Position numbers and translations under genes: made by a program. 64,000 bases of DNA from Ramlibacter rhizophilus (GTDB lineage Bacteria > Pseudomonadota > Gammaproteobacteria > Burkholderiales > Burkholderiaceae_C): NCBI RefSeq assembly GCF_004681965.1, contig NZ_SMLL01000004.1, positions 248,001 to 312,000 on the forward strand, given 5' to 3'. This document shows, piece after piece, positions 11,017 through 62,456 of this stretch (position 1 is the first letter of the stretch; each line of letters begins with the position of its first letter). The notes beneath the pieces were generated by a model, which saw nothing but the letters and a program-made list of their open reading frames with translations, had not been told where the DNA came from and ran no database searches.

Positions 11017-12813
11017 ATGCCTCTCTACAACCCGCCGATCCGCGACATGCACTTCGTCATGCACGAGGTGCTCAAGGTCGCCGACGAGTACAAGACCATG
11101 CCGCGCCACGCCGAGGTGGACGTGGACACCATCAACGCCGTCCTGGAGGAGGGCGGGAAGTTCGCCAGCGAAGTGCTGCTGCCGCTGAACATCTCCGGTG
11201 ACGAGGAAGGCTGCACGCTCGACCGCGACACGCACGAGGTCGCCACACCCAAGGGCTTCAAGCAAGCCTTTGCGCAATACGTGGAAGGTGGCTGGCCCGC
11301 GCTGTCCTGCGACCCGGCGTACGGAGGCCAGGGCCTGCCCATCGTGGTCAACCAGTGCTTCTTCGAGATGCTCAACTCGGCCAACCAGGCCTGGACCATG
11401 TACCCCGGCCTCTCGCACGGCGCCTACGAGGCCCTGCATGCGCACGGCACCGAGGAGCAAAAGCGCCTGTACCTGCCCAGGCTCACCAGTGGCGAGTGGA
11501 CCGGCACCATGTGCCTGACCGAGCCGCATTGCGGCACCGACCTCGGCCTGCTGCGCACCAAGGCCGAGCCCCAGGCCGACGGAACGTACCGCATCACGGG
11601 CCAGAAGATCTTCATCTCGGCCGGCGAGCACGACATGGCCGCCAACATCGTGCACCTCGTGCTGGCCCGCCTGCCGGACGCGCCCGCGGGCAGCAAGGGC
11701 ATCAGCCTCTTCATCGTCCCCAAGTACAGGATCCAGCCCGACGGCACGCTGGGCGAGCGCAATGGCGTGTATTGCGGCGGCCTGGAGCACAAGATGGGCA
11801 TCCACGGCAACGCCACCGCACAGATCGTGCTGGACGGGGCGGTGGGCACCCTGGTGGGCCAGCCGAACAAAGGCCTGCAGGCCATGTTCGTGATGATGAA
11901 CGCGGCGCGCATCGGCGTGGGCATGCAGTCGCTGGGCCTGACCGAGGTCGCCTACCAGAACGCCCTGGCGTATGCCAAGGACCGCCTGCAATCGCGCAGC
12001 CTGAGCGGGCCCAAGGCCAAGGACAAGCCGGCCGATCCCATCATCGTCCACCCGGACGTCAGGCGCATGCTGCTCACGGCCAAGGCCTACGCCGAGGGCG
12101 GCCGGGCGCTGAACCTCTACTGCGCCTTCCTGATCGACCGCGAGCTGCATCACCCCGATGAGAAGGTGCGCAAGGAAAGCGGCGAGCTGGTGGCCCTGCT
12201 CACGCCCATCGTGAAGGCCTTCCTCACCGACAACGGCCACATCGCCACCAACGCCTGCATGCAGGTCTTCGGCGGCCACGGCTACGTCAAGGAATGGGGC
12301 ATGGAGCAGTTCGTGCGGGACAACCGCATCAACATGATCTACGAAGGCACCAACACCATCCAGTCGCTGGACCTGCTGGGCCGCAAGGTTCTGGGCAACC
12401 AGGGCGCGACGCTGAAGAAGTTCGGCAAGATGATCGCCAAGCTGGTGGAGGAAGAGGGCGTGAACGAGCAGATGGCCGAGTTCATCAACCCGGTGGCCTA
12501 CCTGGGCGAGCAGATGACCAAGTTCACCACCGAACTGGGCTTCCGCGGTTTCCAGAACGCCGAGGAAGTCGGCGCGGCCGCGGTGGACTACCTGCGCGTG
12601 GCGGGGCATCTCGTCTTCGGGTACTTCTGGGCGCGCATGGCGCAGGTGGCACTGCGCGAGATCGCGGCCGGCAACACCGATCCGTTCTACCAGGGCAAGC
12701 TGCAGACCGCGCGCTTCTACTTCGCGCGCCTGTTCCCCGAGACCGCGGCGCTGATGCGAAGCGCCCGCTCCGGCGCCAAGGTGCTGATGGACACCGATGC
12801 CGCACTGGCCTGA
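11017..12813 (+). CDS. Acyl-CoA dehydrogenase with extended C-terminal domain
   Basis: A 598-residue FAD enzyme that makes the 2-enoyl-CoA in the first step of beta-oxidation. It has the 'MCLTEPHCGTDLGLLRTKA' FAD/substrate loop, 'ITGQKIFISAGEHD', 'YEGTNTIQSLDLLGRK' near the FAD site, and an extra C-terminal helical domain of about 130 residues. That architecture is the long acyl-CoA dehydrogenase type near 600 residues, as opposed to the 380-residue short-chain type. The ATG follows a clear AGGAAAG ribosome site. It opens the fad operon, 37 bp after the TetR gene and 4 bp before the FadN-like gene. Confidence 0.93.
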   Translation: MPLYNPPIRDMHFVMHEVLKVADEYKTMPRHAEVDVDTINAVLEEGGKFASEVLLPLNISGDEEGCTLDRDTHEVATPKGFKQAFAQYVEGGWPALSCDPAYGGQGLPIVVNQCFFEMLNSANQAWTMYPGLSHGAYEALHAHGTEEQKRLYLPRLTSGEWTGTMCLTEPHCGTDLGLLRTKAEPQADGTYRITGQKIFISAGEHDMAANIVHLVLARLPDAPAGSKGISLFIVPKYRIQPDGTLGERNGVYCGGLEHKMGIHGNATAQIVLDGAVGTLVGQPNKGLQAMFVMMNAARIGVGMQSLGLTEVAYQNALAYAKDRLQSRSLSGPKAKDKPADPIIVHPDVRRMLLTAKAYAEGGRALNLYCAFLIDRELHHPDEKVRKESGELVALLTPIVKAFLTDNGHIATNACMQVFGGHGYVKEWGMEQFVRDNRINMIYEGTNTIQSLDLLGRKVLGNQGATLKKFGKMIAKLVEEEGVNEQMAEFINPVAYLGEQMTKFTTELGFRGFQNAEEVGAAAVDYLRVAGHLVFGYFWARMAQVALREIAAGNTDPFYQGKLQTARFYFARLFPETAALMRSARSGAKVLMDTDAALA

Positions 12814-12817
12814 CGCA

Positions 12818-15217
12818 ATGAACCGATTCAACCCGAAGAAAGTCGCCGTCCTGGGCGCCGGCGTGATGGGCGCGCAGATCGCCGCCCACCTGGTCAACTT
12901 GAAGGTGCCGGTGGTGCTGTTCGACCTGCCGGCCAAGGACGGCCCGAAGAACGGCGTGGTCACGCGCGCCATCGAGGGCCTCAGGAAGATGAAGCCCGCG
13001 CCGCTGGGCGTGGCCGATGACGCCGGCCTGATCGAGCCGGCCAACTACGGCGACGACCTGGCCCTGCTGGGCGAATGCGACCTCGTCATCGAGGCCATCG
13101 CCGAGCGCATGGACTGGAAGCGCGATCTGTATGCCCGCATCGCCCCGCACGTGGCGCCGCATGCGGTGCTGGCCTCCAACACCTCGGGCCTGTCGATCAC
13201 GCAGCTGGCTGAGGCGCTGCCCGAGTCGCTGCGGCCCCGCTTTTGCGGCATCCACTTCTTCAACCCGCCGCGCTACATGTTCCTGGTGGAGCTGATCGCG
13301 GCGCCCGCGACCGAGCCCGCCGTGCTCGACGGCCTGGAGGCATTCGTCACCACCACCCTGGGCAAGGGCGTGGTGCGGGCCAAGGACTCGCCCAACTTCA
13401 TCGCCAACCGCGTGGGCATCGCCGGCATGCTGGCCACCATGAAGGAGGCGCAGCGCTACGACCTAGGCTTCGACGTGGTGGACGACCTCACCGGCAAGAA
13501 GATGGGCCGCGCCTCCAGCGGCACCTTCCGCACCGCCGACGTCGTGGGGCTGGACACGATGGCCCACGTGATCCGCACGCTGCAGGACAAGCTGAGCGCC
13601 GAGACCGATCCCTTCTACGCAAGCTACGAGACGCCGCCCGTGCTCTCGGCGCTGCTGGAGATGGGCCACCTGGGCCAGAAGGCCAAGGCGGGCTTCTACA
13701 AGAAGGCGGGCCGCGACATCCTGCGCTTCGAGCTGGAAAGCCGCGACTACGTTCCGGCCGGCCAGAAGGCCGACGAGGTCTATTCCCGCATGCTCGCCAA
13801 GCCCGCGCCCGAGCGGCTGAAGCTGCTGCGGCATGCCACGGGCCCGCAGGGGCAGTTCCTGTGGGCGCTGCTTCGCAACAGCTTCCACTACGCCGCCGTG
13901 CACCTGGCGGACATCGCCGAGACGGCGCGCGACGTGGACCTGGCCATGCGCTGGGGCTTCGGCATGAAGCAGGGCCCCTTCGAGCTGTGGCAGCAGGCCG
14001 GCTGGTTGCAGGTGGCGCAGTGGGTCCAGGAGGACATCGACGCCGGCCGCGCGCTGTCCAAGGCGCCCTTGCCCCGCTGGGTCTTCGAAGGCCCCGTGGC
14101 CGAGGCTGGCGGCGTGCACACGCCCGAGGGCTCCTGGAACCCGGGCACGGGACGCTTCGAGCCGCCCCGGCGCCTGCCGGTCCACGAGCGCCAGCTCTTT
14201 CCGGAGACCGTGCTGGGCGCGAGCGGCCCGCGCTTCGAGACCGCCGGTCGCACGCTGCACGAGGACGCGTCGCTGCGCCTGTGGACGCTCGACGACGAGG
14301 TGCTGATCGCCAGTCTCAAGACCAAGATGCACGTGATCAGCCCGGAACTCGCCGAGGGCCTGCAGCGCGGCGTGGAGTTGGCCGAGCAGCAGTTCAAGGC
14401 CATGGTGGTCTGGTCGGGTGACGAGCCTTTCTCGGCCGGCGCCGACCTGCAGTCCATGCTGCCGGCCTTCATGGCCGTGGGCGTCGCCGCCATCGAGGAC
14501 GCCGAGCAGCACCTGCAGCAGACCATGCTGCGCATCCGCTATGCCGGCGTGCCGGTGGTGTCCGCCATCCGGGGCCTGGCACTGGGCGGTGGCTGCGAGC
14601 TGGCGGTGTACTCGGCGCGTCGCGTCGCGGCGCTGGAAAGCTACATCGGCCTCGTGGAAGTCGGCGTGGGCCTGGTCCCCGGCGCGGGCGGACTGACCTA
14701 CATCGCGCGCCGCGCGGCGGAGAACCAGCGCCTGTCCACCCACAAGGACCTGCTGGCCTTCCTCACCGAAGGCTTCACCGCCGCGGCCATGGCCAAGGTC
14801 GGCACCAGCGCCCTCGAATCGCGCCAGCTCGGCTACCTGCTGGACAGCGACCTCATCGTCGCCAACAAGGACGAACTGCTCTGGGTGGCGCTGAACGAGG
14901 CGCGCACCATGGCCGACAACGGCTGGCGCGCGCCGCTGCGCCGACCCTTCCCGGTGGCCGGGCGCAACGGCAAGGCCACCATCCAGGGGCAGCTGGTGAA
15001 CATGCGCGACGGCGGCTTCATCAGCATCCACGACTTCCGCATCGCCAGCGCCATCGCCCACGTGGTGACCGGCGGCGACGTGGATGCCGGCACGCTGGTG
15101 ACCGAGGACTACCTCATGAAGCTCGAGCGCGAGGCCTTCTGCGCCCTGGTGCAACACCCGAAGACGCAGGACCGCATCCTGGGGATGCTGTCCACGGGCA
15201 AGCCGCTGCGCAATTGA
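12818..15217 (+). CDS. FadN-like 3-hydroxyacyl-CoA dehydrogenase / enoyl-CoA hydratase
   Basis: A 799-residue bifunctional beta-oxidation protein. The NAD-binding dehydrogenase comes first ('VAVLGAGVMGAQIAAHL', about residues 8-24; 'ASNTSGLSITQLAEAL'; 'GIHFFNPPRYM'). An enoyl-CoA hydratase/isomerase (crotonase) fold comes last ('PFSAGADLQSM', 'IRGLALGGGCELAVYS', from about residue 500). This order is the reverse of E. coli FadB/FadJ and matches Bacillus FadN. It converts 2-enoyl-CoA to 3-ketoacyl-CoA in two steps. The next pathway enzyme, the thiolase, is 610 bp downstream, separated by a repeat element and a DUF559 gene. Confidence 0.92.
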   Translation: MNRFNPKKVAVLGAGVMGAQIAAHLVNLKVPVVLFDLPAKDGPKNGVVTRAIEGLRKMKPAPLGVADDAGLIEPANYGDDLALLGECDLVIEAIAERMDWKRDLYARIAPHVAPHAVLASNTSGLSITQLAEALPESLRPRFCGIHFFNPPRYMFLVELIAAPATEPAVLDGLEAFVTTTLGKGVVRAKDSPNFIANRVGIAGMLATMKEAQRYDLGFDVVDDLTGKKMGRASSGTFRTADVVGLDTMAHVIRTLQDKLSAETDPFYASYETPPVLSALLEMGHLGQKAKAGFYKKAGRDILRFELESRDYVPAGQKADEVYSRMLAKPAPERLKLLRHATGPQGQFLWALLRNSFHYAAVHLADIAETARDVDLAMRWGFGMKQGPFELWQQAGWLQVAQWVQEDIDAGRALSKAPLPRWVFEGPVAEAGGVHTPEGSWNPGTGRFEPPRRLPVHERQLFPETVLGASGPRFETAGRTLHEDASLRLWTLDDEVLIASLKTKMHVISPELAEGLQRGVELAEQQFKAMVVWSGDEPFSAGADLQSMLPAFMAVGVAAIEDAEQHLQQTMLRIRYAGVPVVSAIRGLALGGGCELAVYSARRVAALESYIGLVEVGVGLVPGAGGLTYIARRAAENQRLSTHKDLLAFLTEGFTAAAMAKVGTSALESRQLGYLLDSDLIVANKDELLWVALNEARTMADNGWRAPLRRPFPVAGRNGKATIQGQLVNMRDGGFISIHDFRIASAIAHVVTGGDVDAGTLVTEDYLMKLEREAFCALVQHPKTQDRILGMLSTGKPLRN

Positions 15218-15266
15218 GGGGGTGATGGTGGGGCTTGGCGAATTTGCGGAGGGGTTGGCGGGCGTA

Positions 15267-15343
15267 GCCCCCACCCCCGCCCTCCCCCAGAAGGGGAGGG
15301 GGTCTTGCACCTTCCCCCTTTGGGGGAAGGCAGGGATGGGGGC
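15267..15343 (+). repeat. 77-bp structured repeat, copy 1 (three-way junction)
   Basis: GCCCCCA at 15267-15273 pairs with TGGGGGC at 15337-15343. The closed region holds two hairpins: CCCTCCCC/GGGGAGGG (15280-15287 with 15293-15300) and CTTCCCCC/GGGGGAAG (15311-15318 with 15322-15329). A second element of the same length and fold is at 62304-62380, with 67 of 77 positions identical by hand count. It belongs by appearance to the class of REP-like intergenic palindromes common in GC-rich proteobacteria. It lies between the FadN-like gene and the DUF559 gene; the 233-bp gap holds no other gene I can support. Confidence 0.85.
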
Positions 15344-15449
15344 CCGCACGCCAGTACCGCCCCTTGGCGCACACCCTGCCATGTCTGACATTCGCGCTCG
15401 AAGCGTCTCCTGCAAGACTGGCCTCTTTCCACCAAGGAAAGGCCAGTCC

Positions 15450-15830
15450 ATGCAATCCCAGGCCACCGCCCAGGCCCGCCAGTTCGCCCGCGAACTGCGC
15501 AAAGCCATGACGGACGCCGAGCGTCGCCTCTGGTCCCGCCTGCGTGGAAATCAGCTCGGCTTCCGTTTCCGCCGCCAGCACCCGGTCGGTCCCTTCATCG
15601 CGGACTTCGCCTGCCTCGACCCGCAGCTTGTCGTCGAGCTCGACGGCTCGCAGCATGCGCAGCAGACGGCCTACGACCAGGCCCGCGACGCCTTCCTGCG
15701 CAGCCGCGGCTTCGCCGTGCTGCGTTTCCCCTGCCACGAGCCGCTGCGCCATTGCGACGGCGTGCTCGAAACCATCACCTCGACACTCGCCAGCCTGGCG
15801 GGTGCGGCTCCTTCCAGGATCAAGCCATGA
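15450..15830 (+). CDS. DUF559 (Vsr-like endonuclease fold) protein
   Basis: A 126-residue protein of the DUF559 family, related to very-short-patch-repair-type nucleases. The core reads 'MTDAERRLWSRLRG', 'FRFRRQHPVGPFIADFAC' and 'LVVELDGSQHA', giving the Asp and Glu expected for a PD-(D/E)XK-like metal site, then 'FLRSRGFAVLRF'. No biochemical role is established to my knowledge. The start follows AAGGAAAGG; the frame stays open upstream through the 77-bp repeat, but that stretch translates as repeat, not as domain. Its stop overlaps the thiolase start by 4 bp, so it sits inside the fad operon although it has no evident link to fatty-acid metabolism. A later insertion with the repeat is plausible. 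Confidence 0.85.
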   Translation: MQSQATAQARQFARELRKAMTDAERRLWSRLRGNQLGFRFRRQHPVGPFIADFACLDPQLVVELDGSQHAQQTAYDQARDAFLRSRGFAVLRFPCHEPLRHCDGVLETITSTLASLAGAAPSRIKP

Positions 15831-17032
15831 AACAAGTCCAGGACGCCTACGTCGTCGCCGCCACCCGCACGCCCATCGGGCGTTCGCACCGCGGCTATTT
15901 CCGCCACACCCGGCCCGATGAACTCCTGGCCACCGCGCTGCGCGCGGCCCTGGCGCAGGTGCCCTCGCTCGATCCGCAGGCCATCGAGGACGTGGTGTGC
16001 GGCTGCGCCATTCCGGAGGCGCAGCAGGGCCTGAACATCGCGCGCATCGGCGCCGTGCTGGCCAAACTGCCCAAGAGCGTGGGCGGCATCACCGTGAACC
16101 GCTTCTGCGCCTCGGGCCTGTCGGCCGTGCAGATGGCGGCCGACCGCATCCGTGTGGGCGAGGCCGACGTGATGATCGCGGCCGGCACCGAGAGCATGAG
16201 CATGGTGCCCATGATGGGCAACTCGCCCTCGCTGTCGCCGGAGATCTTCACCGACGTGGACGACATCGAGAGCTATGGCATCGCCTACGGCATGGGCCTG
16301 ACCGCCGAAAAGGTGGCGCAGCGCTGGAAGGTGACCCGTGAAGACCAGGACCAGTTCGCTTACCAGTCGCACATGAAGGCCGTGGCGGCGATGAAGGCAG
16401 GCGAGTTCGCGGGCGAGATCACGCCCGTGGAGGTCACCGAGCGTTCCGTGGACCTGAAGACCGGCGAGCCGCGCGTGGACAGCCGCACCGTGCAGCTGGA
16501 CGAAGGCGCGCGTCCCGACACCACGCCGGAGGGGCTGGCGAAGCTCAAGACGGTTTTTGCGGCGCGCGGCACCGTCACGGCGGGCAACAGCTCGCAAACC
16601 TCGGACGGCGCGGGCGCCCTGGTGCTCGCGAGCGAGGCGGCTGTCCAGCGCTTCGGCCTCAAACCCCTGGCCCGCTTCGTGAGCTATGCCAGCCGGGGCG
16701 TGCCGCCGCACCTCATGGGCATCGGGCCGATCGAGGCGGTGCCGGCGGCCCTGCGCTCGGCCGGCATCCGCAAGGAGGATCTCGACTGGATCGAACTGAA
16801 CGAAGCTTTCGCCGCACAGTCGCTGGCCGTCATCCGCGAGCTGGGCCTCGACCCGTCCAAGGTCAACCCGATCGGCGGTGCCATCGCCCTGGGCCACCCG
16901 CTGGGCGCCACCGGGGCCATCCGCTCGGCCACCGTGGTGCATGCGCTGGCCCGCAGGAAGCTGAAGTACGGCATGGTCACCATGTGCGTGGGCATGGGGC
17001 AGGGCGCAGCAGGTATCTTCGAGCGCGTCTGA
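15827..17032 (+). CDS. Acetyl-CoA acyltransferase (thiolase, FadA-like)
   Basis: A 401-residue thiolase that cleaves 3-ketoacyl-CoA with CoA in the last step of beta-oxidation. The nucleophilic Cys is in 'NRFCASGLSAVQMAAD'. The C-terminal signatures are 'GGAIALGHPLGATGA' (His) and 'VTMCVGMGQGAAGIFE' (second catalytic Cys). 'NEAFAAQSLAV' is also family-typical. The start codon overlaps the DUF559 stop (ATGA), so its translation may now depend on that gene. It follows the FadN-like gene in pathway order and precedes an enoyl-CoA hydratase by 20 bp. Confidence 0.94.
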   Translation: MKQVQDAYVVAATRTPIGRSHRGYFRHTRPDELLATALRAALAQVPSLDPQAIEDVVCGCAIPEAQQGLNIARIGAVLAKLPKSVGGITVNRFCASGLSAVQMAADRIRVGEADVMIAAGTESMSMVPMMGNSPSLSPEIFTDVDDIESYGIAYGMGLTAEKVAQRWKVTREDQDQFAYQSHMKAVAAMKAGEFAGEITPVEVTERSVDLKTGEPRVDSRTVQLDEGARPDTTPEGLAKLKTVFAARGTVTAGNSSQTSDGAGALVLASEAAVQRFGLKPLARFVSYASRGVPPHLMGIGPIEAVPAALRSAGIRKEDLDWIELNEAFAAQSLAVIRELGLDPSKVNPIGGAIALGHPLGATGAIRSATVVHALARRKLKYGMVTMCVGMGQGAAGIFERV

Positions 17033-62271: not shown

Positions 62272-62303
62272 GCGCGGGGCTCGCGGTGTGGTCTGCGCCC
62301 GCG

Positions 62304-62380
62304 GCCCCCACCCCAACCCTCCCCCAGAGGGGGAGGGGGTCCTTCTCCTTCCCCCACTGCGGGAAGGCTGGGATGGGGGC
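62304..62380 (+). repeat. 77-bp structured repeat, copy 2 (three-way junction)
   Basis: GCCCCCA (62304-62310) pairs with TGGGGGC (62374-62380) and encloses two hairpins: CCCTCCCCC/GGGGGAGGG (62317-62325 with 62329-62337) and CCTTCCC/GGGAAGG (62347-62353 with 62361-62367). It has the same length and fold as the element at 15267-15343; changes such as a longer first stem keep the pairing. Similarity also continues into the flank (a CGCCAG and a CCCCTTGGC stretch in both). It occupies the 200-bp gap between ftsZ and lpxC, where it may cut or shield the mRNA. Confidence 0.85.
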
Positions 62381-62456
62381 CCGTTCGCCAGCCCCTTGGC
62401 CCTTCGCCTATCACCGCCTTAGCCAAGGCCCACCTCGAGCCCGAGGGTGCCCCCCG

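Follow-up and report, generated by a model that had tools for sequence, protein, structure and literature searches.

The DUF559 genes described here are probably the sole gene of a family of small mobile elements organized much like RAYT/REPIN systems. Comparison among loci and genomes shows a unit with a defined anatomy, covariation within its ends that follows the rules of triplex pairing, an association between gene and repeats, a cognate pairing of gene and end type, gene-less derivatives, and one case of near-identical units at ectopic positions. The starting point was a window (the whole 64,000-nt stretch of Ramlibacter rhizophilus DNA that was analysed) with the following features.

12797-15217, + strand: upstream flanking ORF, 3-hydroxyacyl-CoA dehydrogenase/enoyl-CoA hydratase type (named from its translation)
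15222-15830, + strand: extended DUF559 frame from the first GTG, 202 aa, open through the repeat; its N-terminal part is translated palindrome
15267-15300, + strand: R-type end of repeat copy 1, an imperfect hairpin (15280-15300) preceded by a C-rich arm (15267-15279)
15310-15343, + strand: L-type end of repeat copy 1, a hairpin (15310-15330) followed by a G-rich arm (15331-15343)
15416-15448, no strand assigned: palindrome just 5' of the DUF559 start codon, with a DNA fold z of -4.1 and no G-rich arm after it
15450-15830, + strand: DUF559 (PF04480) nuclease-type gene, 126 aa (ORF list, Pfam, alignment, and structural model)
15828-17032, + strand: downstream flanking ORF, acyl-CoA thiolase type (named from its translation)
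62304-62380, + strand: repeat copy 2, an R-L doublet with an imperfect second hairpin that precedes an lpxC-like start (62472)

The first-pass annotation had placed a DUF559 gene at 15450, inside neighbors of beta-oxidation type and in a frame that stays open through the repeat, and these positions were confirmed, the gene starting 106 bp past the repeat core (15267-15343). The ORF matches PF04480 with an E-value of 2e-36 and 124.6 bits (curated cut-off 20.6), and within the 202-aa extended frame the Pfam match covers residues 85-189 only. The palindrome translated in the DUF559 frame (15222-15449) might account for the Pro/Arg-rich N-termini of annotated DUF559 proteins. Both flanking ORFs are presumably of beta-oxidation type, as judged from their translations. 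A PF04480 search found this to be the single DUF559 gene in the 4.59-Mb window genome. A role in a defense system was considered and rejected, PADLOC giving a weak match only (DpdF, E 0.005).

By comparison, an intact unit consists of an L-end, the DUF559 gene, and an R-end, and is about 400-590 bp long. The L-end is built of a hairpin, 3 nt, and then a G-rich arm, and the R-end is its reverse complement. The position of the arm would let it fold back onto the stem as the third strand of a triplex. In an intrastrand triplex, the third strand pairs as G.G:C, A.A:T, and T.A:T. In 118 arms, selected as G-rich, arm and stem bases were strongly associated when the loop was set at 3 nt (odds ratio 61), while loops of 1, 2, 4, and 5 nt gave odds ratios of 0.79-0.87, i.e., no association. 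The observed arm/stem match was 0.88, against a mean of 0.77 when arms were shuffled between elements (maximum 0.80 of 500 shuffles). The p-value of this test is not to be taken literally since the instances share descent, and it is the contrast among loop lengths that carries the argument. Because arm bases follow the stem at the 3-nt loop only, the sequences indicate that the triplex-capable form, beyond the hairpin itself, is conserved while the sequence drifts.

Hairpins of this kind flank DUF559 genes well outside the genus. In a cross-phylum sample of 64 DUF559 loci, found only by peptide patterns of the window protein and therefore blind to repeats, at least one flank of the gene had a perfect pyrimidine/purine hairpin within 150 bp at 52 loci, and both flanks had one at 31, compared with 34 and 1, respectively, of 557 control ORFs at the same loci. 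Hairpins numbered 5.7 per kb in the interval 0-100 bp from the gene and 0.054 per kb in the interval 3-10 kb away. The 200-bp upstream and downstream flanks shared an inverted repeat better than every random-position control at 49 of 63 testable loci, one locus at a contig edge having been dropped. In the order sample (30 loci picked by HMM score, less four truncated ones), 23/26 loci had a hairpin on at least one side and 16/26 on both, over a background of 4 hairpins in 46.8 kb. In the genus sample, from which L037 and L042 (under 3000 bp) and L060 were excluded, the corresponding counts were 26/27 and 25/27. In most of the 30 genus genomes with a DUF559 match, the gene stands between mutually inverted hairpins of the form CCYTCNCC..GGNGARGG. 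The recurring link between DUF559 and REP-like repeats suggested in the first-pass annotation was thus recovered in all three samples. A hairpin of the searched type within 150 bp was absent at 12/64 cross-phylum and 3/26 order loci.

In the window itself, the two ends of copy 1 form a 77-bp R-L doublet with its arms pointing outward, an order less common than L-R in this genome, and its single-stranded DNA fold has a z of -5.0 against shuffles (1/200 shuffles as good). As an own end of the DUF559 gene, copy 1 was rejected because of this R-L order; the ends of DUF559 units, and most doublets in the order, run L-R, and copy 1 is therefore best read as a separate insertion. The palindrome at 15416-15448 is possibly the decayed left end of the unit. 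Recognizable own ends of the window unit were not found, and on the downstream side the gene abuts the thiolase directly. With its recognizable ends gone, the unit would now either work in trans or be retained by the host.

The setting of the window gene is shared across the genus. A DUF559 match was found in 30 of 60 genus genomes, a few of the matches being fragments, and in 29 of these 30 the best match has the same pair of fatty-acid genes as neighbors (both recognized in 24 genomes, one in five). Of the DUF559-lacking genus genomes, 26/30 were fetched for this site and 22 were readable: in 15 no more than 4-34 bp separate the two genes, the clean empty site that the first-pass annotation had proposed to look for, four carry likely remnants of a unit or of its ends, and three carry other inserts. 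Two relatives without DUF559 (G036 and G034) have other short repeat-like sequences in the fad gap (L160 and L169, respectively).

The 25 comparable DUF559 proteins of the genus fall into two clades with a mean identity of 54% between them. After four of the 29 genus loci were dropped because the motif was not found, gene clade and flanking hairpin type agreed at 24/24 loci, or 25/25 with the window locus added, where the hairpins are those of the neighboring doublet. Distances between DUF559 genes are independent of those between the adjacent thiolases (r 0.05 over 21 loci; four more lacked a thiolase match), and loci L039 and L048 have thiolases that are 98% identical, DUF559 proteins that are only 54% identical, and ends of different type. 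Given the match of clade to end type, the independence from the thiolase, and the discordance of L039 and L048, whole units including their ends appear to have been exchanged at the fad site, and on these sequences simple vertical descent is not an adequate description of DUF559 there. The pairing extends to repeats elsewhere in the genome: the median type-A share of genome-wide repeats is 0.49 in the eight genomes with a clade-A gene and 0.08 in the 17 with a clade-B gene, a lean towards the resident type with a p of 5e-4 over 25 genomes. The earlier proposal of a mobile unit together with its adjacent repeat thus survives in part. Its link between DUF559 and the repeats stands, but copy 1 is not an end of the gene, and a fresh insertion is not supported; with the gene at the same operon site in 29/30 DUF559-bearing genus members, the window DUF559 is better regarded as a long-resident, exchanged cassette.

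Ectopic copies were found in one genome of the order (G276), on a 3.28-Mb contig. It has four DUF559 matches, and the three that were retrieved are units of about 590 bp, 95-99.7% identical to one another, with unrelated flanks, at 1.27, 1.53, and 2.85 Mb. The same genome has a DUF559 unit in which the middle of the gene is deleted (L312:481-816); it aligns with one of the intact units (L274) over 180 bp at 96.7% and over 124 bp at 92.7%, with the middle missing, and is apparently, by its sequence, an intermediate between a unit and a gene-less doublet. A further locus (L316) is a lone hairpin bearing both outer edges of the unit. Among 15 multi-copy genomes (39 loci), this was the only one with nearly identical units at separate sites (3/34 pairs). 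The motif initially used for this comparison missed 17/39 loci, and all 34 pairs were then compared by blastn; the next best pair longer than 100 bp was 87.7% identical over 357 bp, and 21/34 pairs did not match across the gene at the nucleotide level. Recent jumps of units must therefore be rare or old, and in most multi-copy genomes the units, judged by their divergence, are old or separately acquired.

At the junction of the thiolase and the next gene, doublets with the ends and order of a unit but no gene were found in 5/27 genus genomes read. Adjacent hairpin pairs were in L-R order in 11/13 cases at loci L320-L331, which were picked from pattern listings, several of them because two hairpins stood close together. 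In 604 kb of the window genome (G000), closely paired perfect hairpins were L-R in 7/10 cases, always with a gap of 56-57 bp, and in 7/7 of these L-R doublets one hairpin is of the CCCTC type and the other of the CCTTC type; the two doublets of the window, each with an imperfect hairpin and both R-L, were left out of these ten pairs. An early orientation count restricted to exact 8-bp stems, which left many arms unassigned, found L-R flanks at 8/64 cross-phylum and 22/30 genus loci, and classed the 13 short-range pairs not next to DUF559 as seven R-L, four R-R, and two L-R. With 2/13 L-R in that strict cross-phylum count, the L-R majority of gene-less pairs holds for this order only.

Those R-L doublets whose ends are some 10 bp apart (15267-15343, L335:5913, and L356:2978) resemble circular permutations of the L-R doublet, and one may speculate that the joined ends of an excised circle would yield this order. 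Copy 1 has 76 blastn matches in the window genome, the query itself and matches on both strands included. Copy 2 matches it at 82% over 109 nt (62283-62391). Of 57 stretches fetched for the lpxC-like site, six were unreadable, and among the 51 genus genomes read, the doublet is present in the window genome only; one relative (G025) has a single triplex-type hairpin there within a longer, different gap. The flanks at this site are too diverged among relatives for exact boundaries. By eye, a GTAG adjoins copy 1 and not copy 2, and a GTAG tag at the foot of the palindrome is not common to the ten G000 pairs.

An alternative to transposition is homing, in which the nuclease cuts alleles that lack its unit or carry another type, the unit is copied in by recombination, and the ends serve as recognition or recombination sites, in the manner of intron-encoded EDxHD homing endonucleases. 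Several observations fit. Type A and type B units share one site in the genus, the nearest predicted fold apart from 3HRL is that of the homing endonuclease I-Bth0305I, and ectopic near-identical units are confined to 1/15 multi-copy genomes. Visual inspection of the three G276 units and of the seven G000 L-R doublets, for which there was no close empty site to compare, showed no target-site duplication. However, three near-identical units at unrelated sites of one chromosome and dispersed gene-less doublets require ectopic movement, and homing does not predict that triplex-capable ends should be kept across phyla. We therefore consider homing unlikely as the main explanation, although it deserves some weight.

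The association of gene and repeats also holds at the level of whole genomes. In the order, 106 genomes have a DUF559 match at E 1e-20 or better, here called strong, and 77 of them contain at least five hairpins, compared with 32 of the 293 other genomes. Kinship among the sequences is allowed for only by a family-stratified test, in which DUF559 labels were permuted within 29 families holding 265 of the 399 genomes; the other 134, five of them DUF559-strong, belong to families without DUF559 variation and were dropped. The observed value was reached in 0/20000 permutations, with 23 families for the association, three against, and three tied. Within the genus, where four genomes with a weak or partial DUF559 were set aside, the median number of hairpins was 40.5 in 26 DUF559-strong genomes vs. 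1 in 30 genomes without DUF559. Two genomes with 502 (G217) and 299 (G373) pattern-matching hairpins both have strong DUF559 matches. The correspondence is incomplete in both directions: the searched hairpin pattern had no match in 15/106 DUF559-strong genomes, and 19/293 genomes have at least 10 hairpins despite having no strong DUF559.

These genome counts bear on whether DUF559 is a mere passenger, riding between two hairpins that are moved by another enzyme (Y1/RAYT) or by slippage in host replication. Y1 (RAYT-type) genes do correlate with hairpin number (odds ratio 4.7). Nevertheless, the window genome has no match to the Y1 HUH transposase (PF01797), so that a RAYT was rejected as the mover there, and yet it has the highest hairpin count of the 60 genus genomes, with 148 matches to the type-B hairpin pattern. 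Among Y1-lacking genomes of the order, at least five hairpins occurred in 14/20 with DUF559 and in 4/137 without, and among DUF559-lacking genomes with Y1 in only 28/156. Moreover, a passenger would not be expected to agree with its end type in 24/24 cases, nor would one gene family be expected to keep this position in several phyla. We consider such a passenger role improbable, more so than homing.

The protein encoded by the window gene is predicted to have a Vsr/I-Bth0305I (EDxHD) fold. An AlphaFold2 model built from 35 alignment rows had a pLDDT of 84.5, and Foldseek matched it to 3HRL (E 1e-8) and to I-Bth0305I (3r3p_B, E 1.4e-3, probability 1.00), the match to Vsr being weak (1vsr, E 0.36, probability 0.84), so that the Vsr-like fold proposed in the first-pass annotation is borne out by prediction. 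By sequence, the DUF559 profile detects 3HRL at 4e-39 and 3R3P at 3.7e-5. 3HRL (Neisseria gonorrhoeae NGO0050) is a solved structure of a DUF559-like protein, and the title of its entry reads 'putative endonuclease-like'. Residues E24, D52, H69, and D76 are invariant in 38/38 rows of a hand-picked protein alignment that includes 26 of the 64 cross-phylum loci, and all four are intact in the window gene; we take them to be the catalytic residues of the EDxHD type (for the term, see PMC12350094 and PMC5718144). I-Bth0305I and Vsr share with DUF559 the predicted fold, the profile match (3r3p), and the E/D/H/D residues. Unlike the intron-encoded I-Bth0305I, the DUF559 gene lies outside introns and is flanked by palindromes. 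The E. coli family member YcjD was earlier assigned to the PD-(D/E)XK superfamily, and its profile is reported to detect Vsr at 1e-5 (PMC1189080).

Such a fold would also suit a Vsr-like repair or structure-resolving nuclease that the host keeps near structure-prone repeats, with no mobility involved. The window gene has indeed stayed intact though its own ends are unrecognizable, and Caulobacter VsrA (CCNA_02930), a DUF559 protein like that of the window, is described as a putative mismatch-repair nuclease that is SOS-induced and linked to cytosine methylation, with no mobility role in the accessible part of that report (PMC12907096). Host maintenance alone, however, leaves unexplained why the gene stands between inverted ends, the units at unrelated sites, and the cassettes of different type at one site, and we regard it as very improbable. 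As for the possibility that the palindromes are simply transcription hairpins, or that GC-rich ones happen by chance to surround a small gene, the genomes are GC-rich and the repeats seen lie mostly between genes, but hairpins on both sides of 31/64 DUF559 genes vs. 1/557 control ORFs, and a reversed pattern with only 0-6 matches per genome, make this explanation practically negligible.

We therefore return to DUF559 as the gene of a mobile unit. Its protein would recognize the hairpin/triplex ends of its own unit and nick or cut there, and cutting at the ends would mobilize the unit and, in trans, the gene-less doublets. By comparison, the short L-R doublets scattered through the same genomes are its non-autonomous copies, similar to MITEs or REPINs, and in at least one case the copy is clearly an internally deleted unit. 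Such mobilization would parallel what RAYT is thought to do for REPINs, through unrelated chemistry. The likeness to RAYT-REP systems that had been suggested for this locus is upheld by a gene between inverted palindromes and by dispersed doublets with the same ends. RAYT/REPIN systems (REPtrons) likewise have one gene between inverted palindromes and dispersed gene-less repeats with the same ends (PMC3733652). The enzymes differ, RAYT being a Y1 HUH transposase and the DUF559 unit encoding a predicted Vsr-fold nuclease, with ends that follow triplex rules and share no GTAG tag.

The ends are of a known repeat type. BoxC of E. coli, which is the same as the PIT element and the intrastrand triplex motif (TM), likewise consists of a hairpin and a purine third-strand block with a 3-nt loop, and occurs as inverted pairs. 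According to the main text of one study (PMC4666352), it has many intergenic copies in E. coli, triplex motifs are present in over 260 genomes, and mobility functions were never found at their sites, so that their spread was left open; the words endonuclease, Vsr, and DUF occur nowhere in that main text. The second loops TTA and CCG described there are present in the ends of DUF559 units. The sub-types distinguished in that text differ in a loop, and the CCCTC/CCTTC sub-types found here are others. Two groups that it names for their many triplex motifs, Neisseria and cyanobacteria, also appear in our DUF559 search, which we take as a pointer only. A literature search, with subscription papers and most preprints outside its scope, found nothing that links DUF559 to BoxC-type repeats.

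In E. coli, the DUF559 gene found by tblastn is the annotated ycjD, between sapF and fabI. At least 80% of the 5.3-kb ycjD region is present in 3363/5426 E. coli genomes, in agreement with a report that this site carries either ycjD or the eef operon (PMC12817139). On its 3' side, ycjD is followed by BoxC-type motifs, but a left end to match them was not recognized, and the E. coli BoxC copies look old from their sequences. In the pstB-pstA gap (L261:561-780 vs. L266/L267), some E. coli strains have a 92-bp BoxC stretch bounded by repeated AACCGTGT. As a clean insertion this stretch was rejected, as short direct repeats flank it and the difference could be a deletion; zntA-tusA and ypfG-tkt were likewise rejected as loci of BoxC presence/absence, their differences involving other repeats.

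Taken further, DUF559 units may form a new class of mobile element, in which a Vsr/EDxHD nuclease alone recognizes triplex-capable hairpin ends and moves both the unit and the BoxC-type doublets of many phyla; we put this forward tentatively, as a proposal that could well prove wrong. If true, the DUF559 nuclease would be the missing mobilizer of BoxC/triplex repeats, and this would, to our knowledge, be the first transposition system in which end recognition rests on triplex-capable DNA. The covariation between arm and stem is evidence, at the level of sequence, that the triplex-capable form itself is conserved. The comparison also names a candidate mobilizer for the widespread BoxC/triplex motifs and gives the anatomy of the element, and the presence of both ycjD and BoxC makes E. 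coli K-12 a direct test. DUF559, a family of unknown function, thereby gains a likely role.
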